From Serpentinimonas barnesii (lineage in GTDB: Bacteria > Pseudomonadota > Gammaproteobacteria > Burkholderiales > Burkholderiaceae_C), in contig NZ_BAWN01000015.1 of assembly GCF_000696225.1 (NCBI RefSeq), forward strand, positions 124,001-188,000: a stretch of DNA of 64,000 bases. The letters are read 5' to 3'. The notes beneath the pieces were generated by a model. It was not told the origin of the DNA and made no database searches. It was given only the letters and a program-made list of their open reading frames with translations. Position 1 is the stretch's first letter, and each line of letters opens with the position of its first letter. A program made the translations under genes and the position numbers. This document shows positions 33,365 through 39,962 of the stretch, one piece after another.

Positions 33365-35413
33365 ATGCCCGCATCCCAGCCCGACTGGCCACTGCGCAAA
33401 ATCCGGCAACATTTGCTCGATCACGGTTGCTGCCCGCCCGGCACCCTGAGAGAGGGCTTGGCGCGCTCGTGGCAACGCAGTCTGGCCGCTGGCCTCTCGC
33501 CGCTGGCTTCAAGCAAGCGCACCGATCACTTGGGCGAGGCGCAGTTGCGCCACTTGCGTGCCAGCCAGCACGCGCTGCTGGCGCACTCGCTGCCGGTGAT
33601 GGAATACCTGTTCGAGCAAGTGCGCCCCGTTCCCAGCATGGTGATCTTGGCCGATTCGGGCGGCACCTTGCTGCACACCTTGGGCGAGGGGCAGTTTTTG
33701 GGCAAGGCCGAGCGCGTGGCCTTGTCGGCTGGCGCCACTTGGCACGAAGCGCAGCGCGGCACCAACGCCATCGGCACCGCCTTGGCCGAAGCCGCCGCGG
33801 TCGAAATCAACGGCGCCGAACACTACCTGGAGCGCAACGGTTTTTTGACCTGCGCGGCAGCGCCCATTTTTTCTGGCACCGGGCAGTTGTTGGGGGTGCT
33901 CGACATTTCGGCCGAACACGGCCACCGCAACCCCTACAGCCTGGGGCTGGTCAACACCGCCGCCCGCAGCATTGAAAACCGCCTGCTCTGCGCCCAACAC
34001 AAGGGGCTGACGCGGTTGCACCTGCACCCACGCGCCGAGGGCATCGGCTCCTTGGGTGAAGGCATTGTGATCGTCTCCGACGACGGCTGGCTGATTGCCG
34101 CCAACCGCAGCGCCCGCGAGTGGCTGCGCCAAGGCGCCGCACCCTTGGGTGCCCTGCGGCTGGAGCAGTTTCTGCCCCACAGCGTGGAGCAACTGCAGGC
34201 CCTACAGCGCCGCCACCCGCAGCAGCCGCTGGCGCTCACTTTGCACGATGGCCGCAGCCTGTTTGCCCAATTGCACGCCGAGCCAGCCGTTTTGCACCTG
34301 CTGCCTGCGTCTGCGCAACCCGCCCCAAGCGCAGCGTCTGGCCCTGCCGCAGCCACTGTCCCCGCAACGCCACCGCCCACCACCGCCGACGACCCGCTGG
34401 CCCGCCTCGACAGCGGCGACGCGCGCTGGCGCTTGGCCTGCGCCAAGGTGCGCCGCATCCTCGACAAGCCGATCGCTCTGCTGATACAGGGCGAATCTGG
34501 CGTCGGCAAAGAGTGGCTGGCGCGCGCCGCCCACGCCAGCGGCCCGCGGCGCGCGCAGCCCTTCGTGGCGCTCAACTGCGCCGCCCTGCCCGAAGGCCTG
34601 ATCGAAGCCGAACTCTTTGGCCACGCCCCCGGCGCCTTCACCGGCGCCAAGCGCGAAGGGCACACTGGCCTCTTGCGCCAGGCCCACGGCGGCACCCTGC
34701 TGCTGGATGAAATCGGCGACATGCCGCTGGCGGCGCAATCGCGCTTGCTGCGCGTGCTGCAAGAGCGCGAAGTCACCCCGCTCGGAGCCAGCAAGGCGCT
34801 GCCGCTGGATTTTTTCCTGATCTGCGCCAGCCACCGCCCGCTGCGCCCAGAGGTCGAGGCCGGGCGCTTTCGCGCCGATCTGTACTGGCGCATCAACGGC
34901 CTCACGGTCGAGCTGCCGCCGCTGCGCCAGCGCAGCGACTTTGATGCCCTCACCGCCCGACTGTTGCAAGGCATCGAGTCCGGGCGCGGCTTGGCGCTCA
35001 GCCCCGACTTGCTGCAAAGCTTTAAGCAGCACCACTGGCCCGGCAACCTGCGCCAATACGCCAGCGTGCTGCGCACCGCCTGCGCCATGCTGGAGCCGCA
35101 CGAGCGCGTGCTCGACTGGCCGCACCTGGCCGACGACATTCGCGCCGAGCTGCAAGCCGCCTGCTCCGGCCCTGCCGCCACCGCAAGCACAGCCCCAGTG
35201 GCAGCTACGGCCCGTGCGGCCCCAACGGCCCCGTCTGGCCCGCAGCCCCTGCCCCCACTGGCCACGGCGCTACCCCACAGCCTGATCCAGCTCGAACAGG
35301 CTGCCGTGCAACAAGCCCTGCTCGGCAGCCGGGGCAACGTCTCGCAAGCGGCGCGCACCCTAGGCATCAGCCGCCAAACCCTGTACCGCAAACTGCAGGC
35401 GCTGGGGGCTTGA
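33365..35413 (+). CDS. Sigma-54-dependent transcriptional activator, AcoR-like
   Basis: A 682-residue enhancer-binding protein. An N-terminal GAF-type sensor (residues about 70-210, HEAQRGTNAIGTALAE) is followed by a degenerate linker. The AAA+ domain has Walker A GESGVGKE near 376, the sigma-54 contact loop GAFTGA near 423 and Walker B LLLDEIGD near 446. A proline/alanine-rich linker leads to a Fis-type helix-turn-helix (NVSQAARTLGISRQTLYRKL). By analogy with AcoR it should sense acetoin, acetaldehyde or an alcohol and activate the divergent aldehyde dehydrogenase unit. The effector is inferred. Confidence 0.88.
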   Translation: MPASQPDWPLRKIRQHLLDHGCCPPGTLREGLARSWQRSLAAGLSPLASSKRTDHLGEAQLRHLRASQHALLAHSLPVMEYLFEQVRPVPSMVILADSGGTLLHTLGEGQFLGKAERVALSAGATWHEAQRGTNAIGTALAEAAAVEINGAEHYLERNGFLTCAAAPIFSGTGQLLGVLDISAEHGHRNPYSLGLVNTAARSIENRLLCAQHKGLTRLHLHPRAEGIGSLGEGIVIVSDDGWLIAANRSAREWLRQGAAPLGALRLEQFLPHSVEQLQALQRRHPQQPLALTLHDGRSLFAQLHAEPAVLHLLPASAQPAPSAASGPAAATVPATPPPTTADDPLARLDSGDARWRLACAKVRRILDKPIALLIQGESGVGKEWLARAAHASGPRRAQPFVALNCAALPEGLIEAELFGHAPGAFTGAKREGHTGLLRQAHGGTLLLDEIGDMPLAAQSRLLRVLQEREVTPLGASKALPLDFFLICASHRPLRPEVEAGRFRADLYWRINGLTVELPPLRQRSDFDALTARLLQGIESGRGLALSPDLLQSFKQHHWPGNLRQYASVLRTACAMLEPHERVLDWPHLADDIRAELQAACSGPAATASTAPVAATARAAPTAPSGPQPLPPLATALPHSLIQLEQAAVQQALLGSRGNVSQAARTLGISRQTLYRKLQALGA

Positions 35414-35533
35414 AGTTGGGGGGCTGAGGGGGCGTGGAGTCCTCACCCGGCGCTGGGATGGGCCTCAAGCTGCTGGGCCTGCAGGCGAACGCCCTCAAGC
35501 AAAACACCGCTCCAAGCAATGAAAGAATGGTAC

Positions 35534-35569
35534 GCTACCCCGTCAGCGATGACGGGCGTGGATTGAAAC
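35534..35569. CRISPR. Single orphan CRISPR-like repeat (no array, no cas genes)
   Basis: A 36-base element. It contains a perfect 7-bp stem with GCGA loop, CCCGTCAGCGATGACGGG (35539-35556), and ends in GTGGATTGAAAC (35558-35569), the terminal sequence of many type I and III repeats. No second good copy was found in the window. At exactly 35 bases downstream (35605-35640) a 36-base stretch shares GCT at its start and a CCCGC/GCGGG hairpin but only 11 of 36 bases, so a degenerate last repeat is possible but weak. The rest of 35414-35635 shows no gene. Confidence 0.5.
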
Positions 35570-35635
35570 CAAGAGAACGCCGCACTTCGCGCCCCCTTGG
35601 CCGGGCTCTCTCCCGCCATCGCGGGTCGCCGCATC

Positions 35636-37153
35636 CTATCCCGCCAACTCACCCCGCCGGATGGCCTGGCGCGCGGTACACAGCGCGTCTATGGCCTCAA
35701 AAACCCTTACAGGTACCCGATCGGCATATGTTTTGCGCTTGCCCCTGGAGATCGCACCCCCGTTTTGGAGCGCTATGGCAATCAGCGTGGAAAGGTCGGC
35801 GTCGCGCACGTCGTGATCATGCTTGATCTGCTTGTAAATCGCATCAAAATCGCCCAGCCACTGTGCCTGCCTCAGCAGATCTTGCTCTAGGGCCACCTGT
35901 GCCATGCTCAAGGTGAACTCCGCCGCAGCCGTCAGGTCCATAAACCGAAAGGCTTCGTCGGCATGGGGCTTCCAGGTAAAGAAGTAATCCTCATCCCCGG
36001 CCCACAACACCTCACACAACTCGCGTGCGGGTGCGCTGAAGTCCACTAGCGCCTGGAGGTACTCGTCTTCGTGCCGTTTCATGGCCACCGAAATGGGGAG
36101 AACCACCGCCCGTGGCAACGCGCCGGATTGGCCAAGGCAGTGGTGGATGAGAAACCGAGACAGGCGGCCATTGCCGTCCATGAAGGGATGGATGAAGACA
36201 AAGCCAAAGGAGACGATGGCCGCATGCACCAGGGGGTCTAGCTCCTGCGGCTTGCGGTTGGCCAGATCCATCAACCCGTCCATGAGAGCAGGAACCCGTT
36301 CGGGCTTGGGCGGCACATAGCGCACGCCAGCGGCACCGACACCTTTTTGCAAGCGATTTTGCTCGGAGCGAAACTCGAATGCCTGGTCGAATTCGTTGGT
36401 GATGCTCAGGCGCTGCAGTTCACACAGCAGATCTTGCGTCAACTCGTGCGCATCTCCGGCGTGCTTGAGCAGGCTCACGAATGCCTGGGCTTTGTCTCGG
36501 CTAGGCACTTCGCCCTCGATGGCGAAGGAGCCTTCGGTCTCGCTCAAGTAGGCCCAGCCCAGCGCCCTATCCAAAACCTCGATCCCAATGTTTTGTGCAA
36601 ATTGGCGGGCTTGCGCCAGAATGTCTTGCTCCAGCAGGCGCTGCAAAGCCGGGGTTCTGCGCACTGTTGGACAAAACCCGATCTCGCCCAAACCGTTGAA
36701 GTCCATGCGCCATTTCGCACTTCGTCGCGATGCGCCCACACAGTAGCGCTGGGGATCAAACACGGCTTGGTAGGGCGCTGTGATCACCGCATCTCCCTGG
36801 CTGAGATTTTCCCCGGTCACCAGCTCCCAGAGGTGGCAAGCGGTCCGGACATACACCCCATTCGGGGTCGCGGCGTGCGCAGCCTCCATATCTGCCGCAG
36901 GAACCTGCTTGAGACCGGCCGCCAGCAGGTACAGGTTGACCCCTTCGTACTTCAAGGCAAAAAGGAGGTGGCCCAGTAGGGTGTCGGGCGGTGCCATGCG
37001 CGCTGGCACCATCAGGGCACCTGATGGTGTCGCAAGCATCGACTGGGTCGCCGCCAAGTGGGCTGCTCTGGCACCCAGGAAGGAGGGCAGTCGCAAGCGA
37101 TCGCGCAGCCAAGCATAGCCAAGCAGGCCTGTGTTTTTTTGTAGTGAGCTCAT
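35636..37153 (-). CDS. Fic domain protein (predicted AMP-transferase) with inhibitory motif
   Basis: A 505-residue protein. The Fic core motif HPFMDGNGRLSR starts at His322 and is complete, so AMPylation activity is plausible. An upstream inhibitory-helix motif (S/T)xxxE(G/N) is present as SFAIEG at 209-214, with Glu213, placing the protein among class II, self-inhibited Fic enzymes. A C-terminal winged-helix-like region (DLSTLIAIALQNGGAISRG) may bind DNA. Targets are unknown. It stands alone between an AcoR-like regulator and acnB, and two 12-bp direct repeats lie upstream of its start. Confidence 0.87.
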   Translation of the reverse strand: MSSLQKNTGLLGYAWLRDRLRLPSFLGARAAHLAATQSMLATPSGALMVPARMAPPDTLLGHLLFALKYEGVNLYLLAAGLKQVPAADMEAAHAATPNGVYVRTACHLWELVTGENLSQGDAVITAPYQAVFDPQRYCVGASRRSAKWRMDFNGLGEIGFCPTVRRTPALQRLLEQDILAQARQFAQNIGIEVLDRALGWAYLSETEGSFAIEGEVPSRDKAQAFVSLLKHAGDAHELTQDLLCELQRLSITNEFDQAFEFRSEQNRLQKGVGAAGVRYVPPKPERVPALMDGLMDLANRKPQELDPLVHAAIVSFGFVFIHPFMDGNGRLSRFLIHHCLGQSGALPRAVVLPISVAMKRHEDEYLQALVDFSAPARELCEVLWAGDEDYFFTWKPHADEAFRFMDLTAAAEFTLSMAQVALEQDLLRQAQWLGDFDAIYKQIKHDHDVRDADLSTLIAIALQNGGAISRGKRKTYADRVPVRVFEAIDALCTARQAIRRGELAG

Positions 37154-37162
37154 TGCAGACGC

Positions 37163-37194
37163 GATTTTCTATAGCAGCGTGTGATTTTCTATAG
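37163..37194. repeat. Two 12-bp direct repeats upstream of the Fic gene
   Basis: GATTTTCTATAG occurs at 37163-37174 and 37183-37194, a 20-base period, immediately upstream of the Fic start at 37153. Such spacing suggests an operator for a dimeric regulator, possibly the Fic protein itself through its C-terminal region (inference). Confidence 0.5.
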
Positions 37195-37263
37195 ATTGGG
37201 GCCTTGACGCAACTTTATTTATAGCGCATCAGCCGCCAAGGTCGGCGCATCCCTAGCCAAACC

Positions 37264-37288
37264 AAAAAAAACGGCCCCGCAGGGCCGT
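37264..37288 (-). terminator. Intrinsic terminator of acnB
   Basis: On the minus strand a perfect 7-bp stem ACGGCCC/GGGCCGT with a 4-base loop is followed by seven T residues. It lies about 80 bases downstream of the acnB stop. Confidence 0.85.
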
Positions 37289-37370
37289 CGCAAACCTTTT
37301 TACCTCTGCAGCGCAGCAGGTGCGGGCCAGCCGCACGCCACCCAGCGCGCCGCCGGCCCTAGGCCACGCC

Positions 37371-39962
37371 TCAGACCGCCACTTCCTTGGCGGTTGCGGT
37401 GTATTCGGCGATCTGGTCGAAGTTCAGGTATTTGTAGATCGCTGCGCCGTCTTGGTTCACCACCCCCATGGCGGCGTGGTATTCGGCCACGGTGGGCAGC
37501 TTGCCCAGCTTGGAGGCGATGGCCGCCAGCTCGGCCGAGGCCAAGAACACGTTGGTGTTCTTGCCGAGGCGGTTGGGGAAGTTGCGCGTGCTGGTCGAGA
37601 CCACGGTCGCACCTTCGCGCACCTGCGCCTGGTTGCCCATGCACAAGCTGCAGCCGGGCATTTCGGTGCGCGCACCGGCGGCGCCGAAGTTGGCGTAGTG
37701 GCCCTCTTTCATCAGCTCGCTGGCGTCCATCTTGGTGGGCGGGGCCACCCAGAGCTTGACCGGAATGTCGCGCTGGCCCCCGAGCAGCTTGGCGGCGGCG
37801 CGGAAGTGCCCGATGTTGGTCATGCACGAGCCGATGAAGGCTTCGTCGATCTGGGTGCCGGCCACGTCGGACAGCACCTTGGCGTCGTCCGGGTCGTTGG
37901 GGCAGCACAGGATCGGCTCTTTGATCTCGGCTAGGTCGATCTCGATCACGGCGGCGTATTCGGCGTTGGCGTCGGCTTGCAGCAGCTTGGGCTGGTCCAG
38001 CCATTGCTGCACTTTCTCGATGCGGCGCGCTAGCGTTTTGGCGTCTTGGTAGCCGTCGGCGATCATGTTTTTCATCAGCACGATGTTGCTGTTGAGGTAT
38101 TCGATCACCGGCTCGGGGTTGAGCTGAATGGTGCAGCCCGCCGCCGAGCGCTCGGCCGAGGCGTCGGAGAGCTCAAAGGCTTGCTCCACCTTGAGGTTGG
38201 GCAGACCTTCGATTTCCAGGATGCGGCCCGAGAAAATGTTTTTCTTGCCCGACTTGGCCACCGTGAGCAAGCCGGCCTTGATGGCGTAGAGCGGAATGGC
38301 GTGCACCAAGTCGCGCAGCGTCACGCCGGGTTGCATCTGGCCTTTGAAGCGCACCAGCACCGATTCGGGCATGTCCAGCGGCATCACGCCAGTGGCGGCC
38401 CCGAAGGCCACCAGGCCGGAACCTGCGGGGAAGCTGATGCCGATCGGAAAGCGCGTGTGGCTGTCGCCGCCGGTGCCCACGGTGTCGGGCAGCAGCAGGC
38501 GGTTGAGCCAGGAGTGGATCACGCCGTCGCCGGGGCGCAGCGCCACGCCGCCGCGGCTGCTGATGAAGGGCGGCAGCTCGCGGTGCATTTTGGCATCGAC
38601 CGGTTTCGGGTAGGCCGCGGTGTGGCAAAAGCTCTGCATCACCAGATCGGCCGAGAAGCCCAGGCAGGCCAGGTCTTTGAGCTCGTCGCGCGTCATGGGG
38701 CCGGTGGTGTCCTGGCTGCCCACGGTGGTCATGCGCGGCTCGCAGTAGGTGCCGGGGCGCACGCCTTGGCCTTCGGGCAGGCCCACGGCGCGGCCCACCA
38801 TTTTCTGCGCCAGCGTAAAGCCGGCTTGGGTGGCCTTGGGTGCGGCGGGCAGGCGAAACAGCGTGGACGCGGGCAAGCCCAAGAACTCGCGCGCCTTGGC
38901 GGTGAGCGAGCGCCCAATGATCAGGTTGATGCGGCCGCCTGCGCGCACTTCGTCGAGCAGCACCTCGCTCTTGAGCTCAAAGGTGGTGAGGGTGGCGCCG
39001 CCCTTGAGGATTTTGCCCTCGTAGGGCAGGATGTCGATCACGTCGCCCATTTCGAGCCGGCTCACATCGACTTCAATCGGCAGCGAGCCCGAATCTTCTT
39101 GGGTGTTGAAGAAGATCGGGGCAATCTTGCCGCCCAGCGTGACGCCGCCAAAGCGCTTGTTGGGCACGAAGGGGATGTCTTGCCCAGTGGCCCAGACCAC
39201 CGAGTTGGTGGCCGATTTGCGGCTGGAGCCGGTGCCCACCACATCGCCCACGTAGGCCACCAGATGGCCTTTTTTCTTCAGCTCTTCGATGAACTGCATC
39301 GGGCCGCGCTTGCCGTCTTCTTCGGGCTTGAAGGCCGCATCGGGGCGGGTGTTTTTGAGCATCGCCAGGTAGTGCAGCGGGATGTCCGGGCGGCTCCAGG
39401 CGTCGGGCGCAGGCGAGAGGTCGTCGGTGTTGGTCTCGCCGGGCACTTTGAACACGGTCACAGTGATCTGCTTGGGCACTTCGGGGCGGCTGGTGAACCA
39501 CTCGGCCGCGGCCCAGCTTTGCATCACCTCTTGCGCCCGGGCGTTGCCGGCCTTGGCCTTGGTGGCGACGTCGTTGAAGAAGTCGAACATCAGCAGGGTT
39601 TTCTTCAAGGCGGCGGCCGCCACACCCGCGACTTCGGCGTCGTCGAGCAGGTCGATCAGGGGGTGTACGTTGTAGCCGCCGACCATGGTGCCCAGCAGTT
39701 CGGTGGCGCGGGCCTTGGAGAGCAGCCCGACGGCGATGTCGCCATGCGCCACGGCGGCCAAGAAGCTGGCCTTGACCTTGGCCGCGTCGTCCACCCCCGG
39801 CGGCACGCGGTGCGTAAGCAGGTCGAGCAAAAACTCGGCTTCGCCGGCGGGCGGGTTTTTGATGAGCTCGATCAGCTCGGACACCTGTTTGGCGTCCAGT
39901 GGCAGCGGCGGAATGCCGAGTGCGGCGCGCTCGGCGGCGTGTTGGCGGTAGGCTTGCAACAT
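37371..39962 (-). CDS. acnB: Aconitate hydratase B (bifunctional aconitase / 2-methylisocitrate dehydratase)
   Basis: An 863-residue AcnB-type aconitase of normal length. The AcnB-specific N-terminal HEAT-like region and swivel domain precede the catalytic domains; the GSCMTN motif and a later GCSLCMGNQ motif supply the Fe-S cluster cysteines. It interconverts citrate and isocitrate. A GGAG ribosome site 8 bases before the ATG at 39962 decides the start over a GTG at 39971. It is the last gene of the mdh-citE-like-exported protein-acnB run and has its own terminator. Confidence 0.95.

Follow-up and report, generated by a model that had tools for sequence, protein, structure and literature searches.

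The window, by which we mean the whole 64,000-nucleotide stretch of DNA analysed, contains a composite interval between the gene for a sigma-54 dependent activator, which we take to be AcoR-like, and acnB, identified by Pfam as aconitase B. From left to right it holds the 3′-end of a hipA-like gene, a fragment of an IS481-family transposase gene, part of a CRISPR repeat, a stretch of 66 bases, and a fic gene (Table 1). The AcoR-like gene is syntenic in two other genomes of the genus, with 90% identity over query positions 11-2197 in G002 and 79% over positions 8-2100 in G001. At the matching site G002 has an intact hipA, recognizable by its HipA_C and Couple_hipA domains and preceded, by eye, by a likely hipB reading frame. 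The fic gene occupies the site of this cassette, collinearity with G002 restarting at 37119. The interval from the AcoR-like gene to acnB (35413-37371 in the window) varies in the genus: it is 82 bases long in G001, contains hipA (likely hipBA) in G002, and here contains the hipA remnant and a fic gene of the candidate defence family PDC-S24. The original prediction had placed its element alone between the AcoR-like and Fic genes; the location was right, but the remnants of hipA and IS481 lie there as well.

Table 1. Features of the interval that bears the solitary CRISPR repeat
Feature	Position in window	Strand	Evidence
AcoR-like sigma-54 dependent activator gene (conserved left flank)	33365..35413	+	Pfam GAF, Sigma54_activat and Fis-type HTH domains
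hipA-like remnant, last 18 codons with stop (EGVRLQAQQLEAHPSAG, then stop)	35443..35496	-	50/54 bases as in the end of G002 hipA
IS481-family transposase gene remnant, 48 bases	35491..35538	+	45/50 aligned columns identical to L043
Truncated type I-C CRISPR repeat	35539..35569	+	31 of 37 bases; IS481 sequence in place of the first 6
66-base stretch from repeat to fic stop codon	35570..35635		no credible second repeat
fic gene (Fic/DOC)	35636..37153	-	Pfam PF02661, E 1e-17; PADLOC PDC-S24, E 1.6e-156

The repeat sits at the 3′-end of fic. Twenty plasmid-borne Fic relatives, among the matches listed, are all less than 60% identical to the product, and their alignments extend to residues 489-503 of 505, so that the end of fic looks natural. 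Similarity of the locus to plasmids and phages amounts to short, weak matches only (2 and 13 records, respectively). PHROGs searches with six neighbouring proteins returned families without phage-specific names, or no match. The 66 bases separating repeat and fic, which may begin with an old spacer, gave short, weak matches only in a search of 399 genomes from the order, its own genome excepted.

The element as originally described is a 36-base sequence on the plus strand (35534-35569), and the perfect CCCGTCA/TGACGGG stem, the GCGA loop and the CRISPR-like terminal GTGGATTGAAAC ascribed to it are all present there. It occurs once in the whole genome (2,492,251 bases in 94 contigs) when up to three mismatches are allowed, and its reversed control does not occur at all. 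A 29-base sub-pattern likewise finds one match in the window at three mismatches or fewer, against a mean of 0.00 over 100 shuffles. The shorter 16-base probe from the 3′-end is less discriminating: with up to two mismatches it has six sites in this genome (one at 0 mismatches, five at 2), and its reversed control has one. The Rfam model CRISPR-DR9 (RF01322) aligns to exactly the 36 bases with a score of 26.6 bits (E 0.0019, search over 1,201 bases); the element shares the stem-loop layout and the GGATTGAAAC end of this family, but the score falls under the gathering score of 45, and the full window produces no Rfam match at gathering thresholds. The RNA folds at -17.4 kcal/mol (z -4.2).

Only part of this element is CRISPR sequence. 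The IS481 remnant, which comes from near the 3′-end of a transposase gene, carries a 2-base deletion and includes no IS end. When 35491-35538 is compared with the transposase gene of G002, which belongs to IS481 by NF033577 (254 bits; cut-off 224), the last 20 bases are identical. GCTAC (35534-35538) forms the terminal bases of this match and directly abuts the repeat. By comparison, TCG immediately precedes CCCG(T/C)CAG in 162/162 array repeats that fit the core pattern, repeats that do not fit it being left out of the count (loci L103-L110 and L065), whereas the window has TAC. Since the IS481 match runs through GCTAC and the arrays have TCG at the corresponding position, the junction is placed at about 35538/35539. 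On sequence comparison, then, the "36-base element" is five bases of transposase gene followed by 31 bases of repeat, and the original view of all 36 bases as repeat holds for 35539-35569 only. At its other end the IS481 fragment overlaps the hipA remnant by six bases, GCCCTC.

In the native repeat the stem, CGCCCGTCA/TGACGGGCG, has nine pairs, of which seven are left in the window. Nevertheless the native repeat of Pseudorhodoferax sp. Leaf267 folds at -18.6 kcal/mol, and the fused RNA is nearly as stable because the GCTAC of IS481 pairs by chance with GTGG. The complete 36-mer has no exact match in either genome_contigs or viral_contigs, as would be expected if its 5′-end is IS481. The 31-base core shows no decay in the window; this suggests that the event was recent, the other reading being that the 31 bases are under selection.

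Comparison with relatives reveals where such repeats reside. Among 199 genomes, this one included, the 31-base core was detected at three mismatches or fewer in two: the present genome and G083. The latter has 26 copies, all sharing one identical single mismatch, in an array of 37-base repeats with a period of 71-74; the array adjoins cas1 and cas4, and further along lie cas7, cas8c, cas5d and cas3 (Pfam). The same number of copies is found in JAPWHR010000001.1 (Comamonadaceae bacterium G21597-S1), which indicates the family concerned; the closest known repeat is the type I-C one of Comamonadaceae and relatives. With Y at its single variable position, the core was located in eight genome_contigs stretches. 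The exact GTGG form is present in Leaf267 (17 copies) and in a Ramlibacter metagenome-assembled genome (one copy), and the remaining six stretches have the GCGG form. Runs of repeat matches were also noted in at least six of 399 family genomes (G083, G259, G293, G332, G335 and G457). Within the genus, G002 possesses 80 repeats of related sequence together with Cas5d, Cas8c, Cas7 and Cas1c (NCBIfam) and cas3 and cas4 (Pfam), but 5/31 core positions differ from the window; the G002 repeat is therefore not the direct source of the window repeat.

Taken at the level of sequence, 35539-35569 is a genuine type I-C CRISPR repeat of a kind that relatives in the family carry in real arrays. It shares with the repeats of Leaf267 and G083 a run of 31 contiguous bases (identical in the former, one mismatch in the latter), including stem, loop and 3′-end. 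It differs in being a single copy outside any array, with its first six bases replaced by IS481 and two stem pairs lost, in a genome where type I-C cas8c and cas5d were not found. The Ramlibacter locus, for its part, carries on its minus strand at about 1340-1517 the remnant of a three-repeat type I-C array, in which an intact repeat is flanked by a point-mutated one and by a 5′-truncated one that comes, by eye, after an apparent gene end.

The CRISPR system of this genome is of another type. PADLOC identified a type I-E operon on contig C83 (Cas3e, Cas8e, Cas11e, Cas7e, Cas5e, Cas6e and Cas1e), and the associated array differs from the window repeat. This array is long, and spurious reading frames across it repeat the motif FIPARAGNT. 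The profiles for cas8c (TIGR01863) and cas5d (TIGR01876), each of which was positive in 1/14 control genomes, had no match in the draft genome. The original statement that cas genes are missing consequently applies to the locus itself and to type I-C cas8c and cas5d throughout the genome, but not to CRISPR-Cas as such. With the DNA of the G002 type I-C operon as query (position 1 to approximately 8150), G083 was matched, and no match was found among the scored candidates in this genome (40/274 scored). Nor is there a leader: the bases upstream of the repeat are the IS481 fragment, and the G083 leader, which matches that of G002 at E 1.6e-14, finds nothing in 35000-36000 even at a cut-off of E 10. 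Measured against a type I-C array, then, the locus offers the repeat sequence (31/37 bases), with one copy in place of two or more spaced repeats, no leader, and no type I-C cas8c or cas5d in this one draft genome.

A scan of 35300-35800 for promoters of the sigma-70 type, the only type scanned, found none. One terminator-like site was recorded in the same interval, on the minus strand at 35521-35505, which is within the shuffle range of 0.5. Since type I-C cas5d and cas8c were not found and no promoter was recognized, the element should be neither processed nor active. Most likely, the kind of CRISPR system behind this leftover is one not found in this bacterium, and the repeat is inactive.

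A degenerate second repeat, one spacer length away, had also been proposed. The candidate has a local score of 8, and 36% of the 19,936 control segments score at least as high; its best ungapped identity is 18/37 (best of 13 offsets), a value attained by 9.8% of 4,000 controls, each taken at the best of 12 offsets. The sequence near 35604 is thus not distinguishable from chance, even though GGCTC there is 71 bases from the expected start of the native repeat.

We consider the element to be, very probably, an inert scar at a junction, in which a type I-C repeat was truncated at an IS481-linked replacement of one cassette by another. The order seen on the DNA is the last 18 hipA codons, the IS481 transposase fragment, 31 bases of repeat, 66 bases and fic, and the repeat would have arrived with the incoming DNA. 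Two routes may be envisaged. The donor piece could have included fic together with the end of a neighbouring type I-C array; alternatively, an IS481 copy could have been situated at or in an array, where a deletion would have fused transposase gene and repeat. In either case, recombination importing fic would have left the fused piece behind. A donor was sought in several ways. In 27 fic-homologue loci (L074-L095, L097 and L099-L102), neither GGATTGAAAC nor its complement turned up within about 1.5 kb; a comparison of fic with 15 array or cas loci gave no match; and none of the 13 such loci scanned contains an IS481-like motif. Repeat and fic were not found together in 399 family genomes, among the matches listed (68 genomes matched some part), nor in 399 order genomes; of the 31 that matched there, 30 gave short, weak matches and the remaining one was this genome. 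As no donor was found, we infer the sequence of events that involved IS481, the repeat and fic. A search by title for reports of isolated-repeat relics associated with insertion sequences gave no matching report among the matches listed.

The closest competitor, though itself improbable, is that a type I-C array and cas operon once stood at this very position and were lost except for one repeat. The presence of a type I-C locus with 80 repeats in the same genus speaks for it, but that locus lies elsewhere, at 1.488-1.502 Mb beside tRNA-Pro(ggg), while the gap of G002 that corresponds to ours holds hipA; the missing leader at the window repeat also argues against it. The tRNA-Pro(ggg) site of this genome has approximately 1.27 kb of other sequence (4897-6166 of L111, on contig C89) with no type I-C remains, the best repeat match having 14 mismatches of 33. 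Two small reading frames within this segment resemble, by eye, a HEPN protein and a nucleotidyltransferase (MNT), and G001 has a different sequence again at its tRNA-Pro site. We think it barely credible, and on a par with the next explanation but one, that the assembly fused an IS fragment and a repeat from separate places. Both are repeat-type sequences and the draft is in 94 contigs, so that a misjoin, or a type I-C system lying in a gap, is possible. Against an artefact stand the lack of a second repeat copy at three mismatches or fewer, the lack of any other match to the IS stretch better than E 0.001 among the scored candidates in this genome (40/59 scored), and the collinearity of both flanks with the sister genome G002.

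The remaining explanations assign the repeat a function. Solitary repeat units, one tested case being of type I-C, are known from viruses and prophages and act as RNA anti-CRISPRs (Racr; available part of PMC10651486), and a transcribed mimic titrating type I-C Cas proteins would correspond to the decoy or anti-CRISPR unit of the original prediction. The window element resembles Racr units, as the available part of that paper describes them, in being one repeat outside any array, and the fused sequence folds well. However, candidates there were chosen for a promoter within 250 bp upstream, and among 170 prophage units in hosts with any cas operon, the subtype matched in 82.9% (PMC10651486, same part); here there is no sigma-70-like site in the scanned interval, no matching Cas type was found in the host, and the 5′ part of the repeat has been replaced. 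Neither of two core patterns has an exact match in viral_contigs, and, with the AcoR-like gene and acnB being neighbours in G001, there is no sign of a virus or plasmid around the repeat. A Racr-like role is accordingly very unlikely. The same low standing is given to the proposal that the IS481-repeat fusion is transcribed, serves as an RNA decoy or guide directed at type I-C systems that mobile DNA brings into the cell, and for this reason persisted along with the fic cassette.

Some Fic proteins are toxins. An ectopic repeat that steers Cascade to repress such a gene, in the manner of CreA, could therefore be imagined here, and ectopic repeats beside toxins are known from CreTA (available part of PMC9458426). 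The likeness, so far as that part describes CreTA, consists in a repeat that lies outside any array and close to a possible toxin gene. In contrast to CreTA, the window core is single and not degenerate, the second repeat is at chance level, and the effector found in the genome is type I-E rather than type I-C. Nowhere in the window is there a match to the 35 bases 3′ of the repeat that combines a TTC PAM with a seed of at least 7/8, and their best match to the fic promoter, 20/35, is close to the mean of 200 shuffles (18.65); the repeat, moreover, is at the 3′-end of fic. Targeting of fic was rejected on the PAM, seed and promoter results, and a CreA-like role seems a shade less likely still than a Racr-like one. 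A captured RNA-processing site, also suggested originally, has no positive evidence in its favour, and nor has the decoy; against both stand that type I-C cas8c and cas5d were not found in the genome, that 35300-35800 has no sigma-70-like site, that viral_contigs has no exact copy, and that the 5′-end is transposase sequence. The window element lacks most of the tested features of both Racr and CreTA.

Of the three original options the array relic is the one that survives: relatives carry real arrays of the type I-C family to which the repeat belongs, so the comparison that might have removed this option has left it standing. It is modified in that the relic is not a whole repeat left in place, but a truncated one at a recombination junction. 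On the evidence here the element works like neither Racr nor CreTA, and we would class it as a type I-C repeat relic that has been truncated. A lone repeat with a perfect hairpin and a canonical 3′-end can thus be a scar of cassette turnover, and before a solitary repeat receives a regulatory or anti-CRISPR label, one should compare its 5′ boundary with mobile-element sequence and look in the genome for the matching Cas type. For the genus, the site records the exchange of hipA for fic at one position of the chromosome; a second variable position lies beside tRNA-Pro, where G002 has its type I-C locus and the present genome has other sequence.
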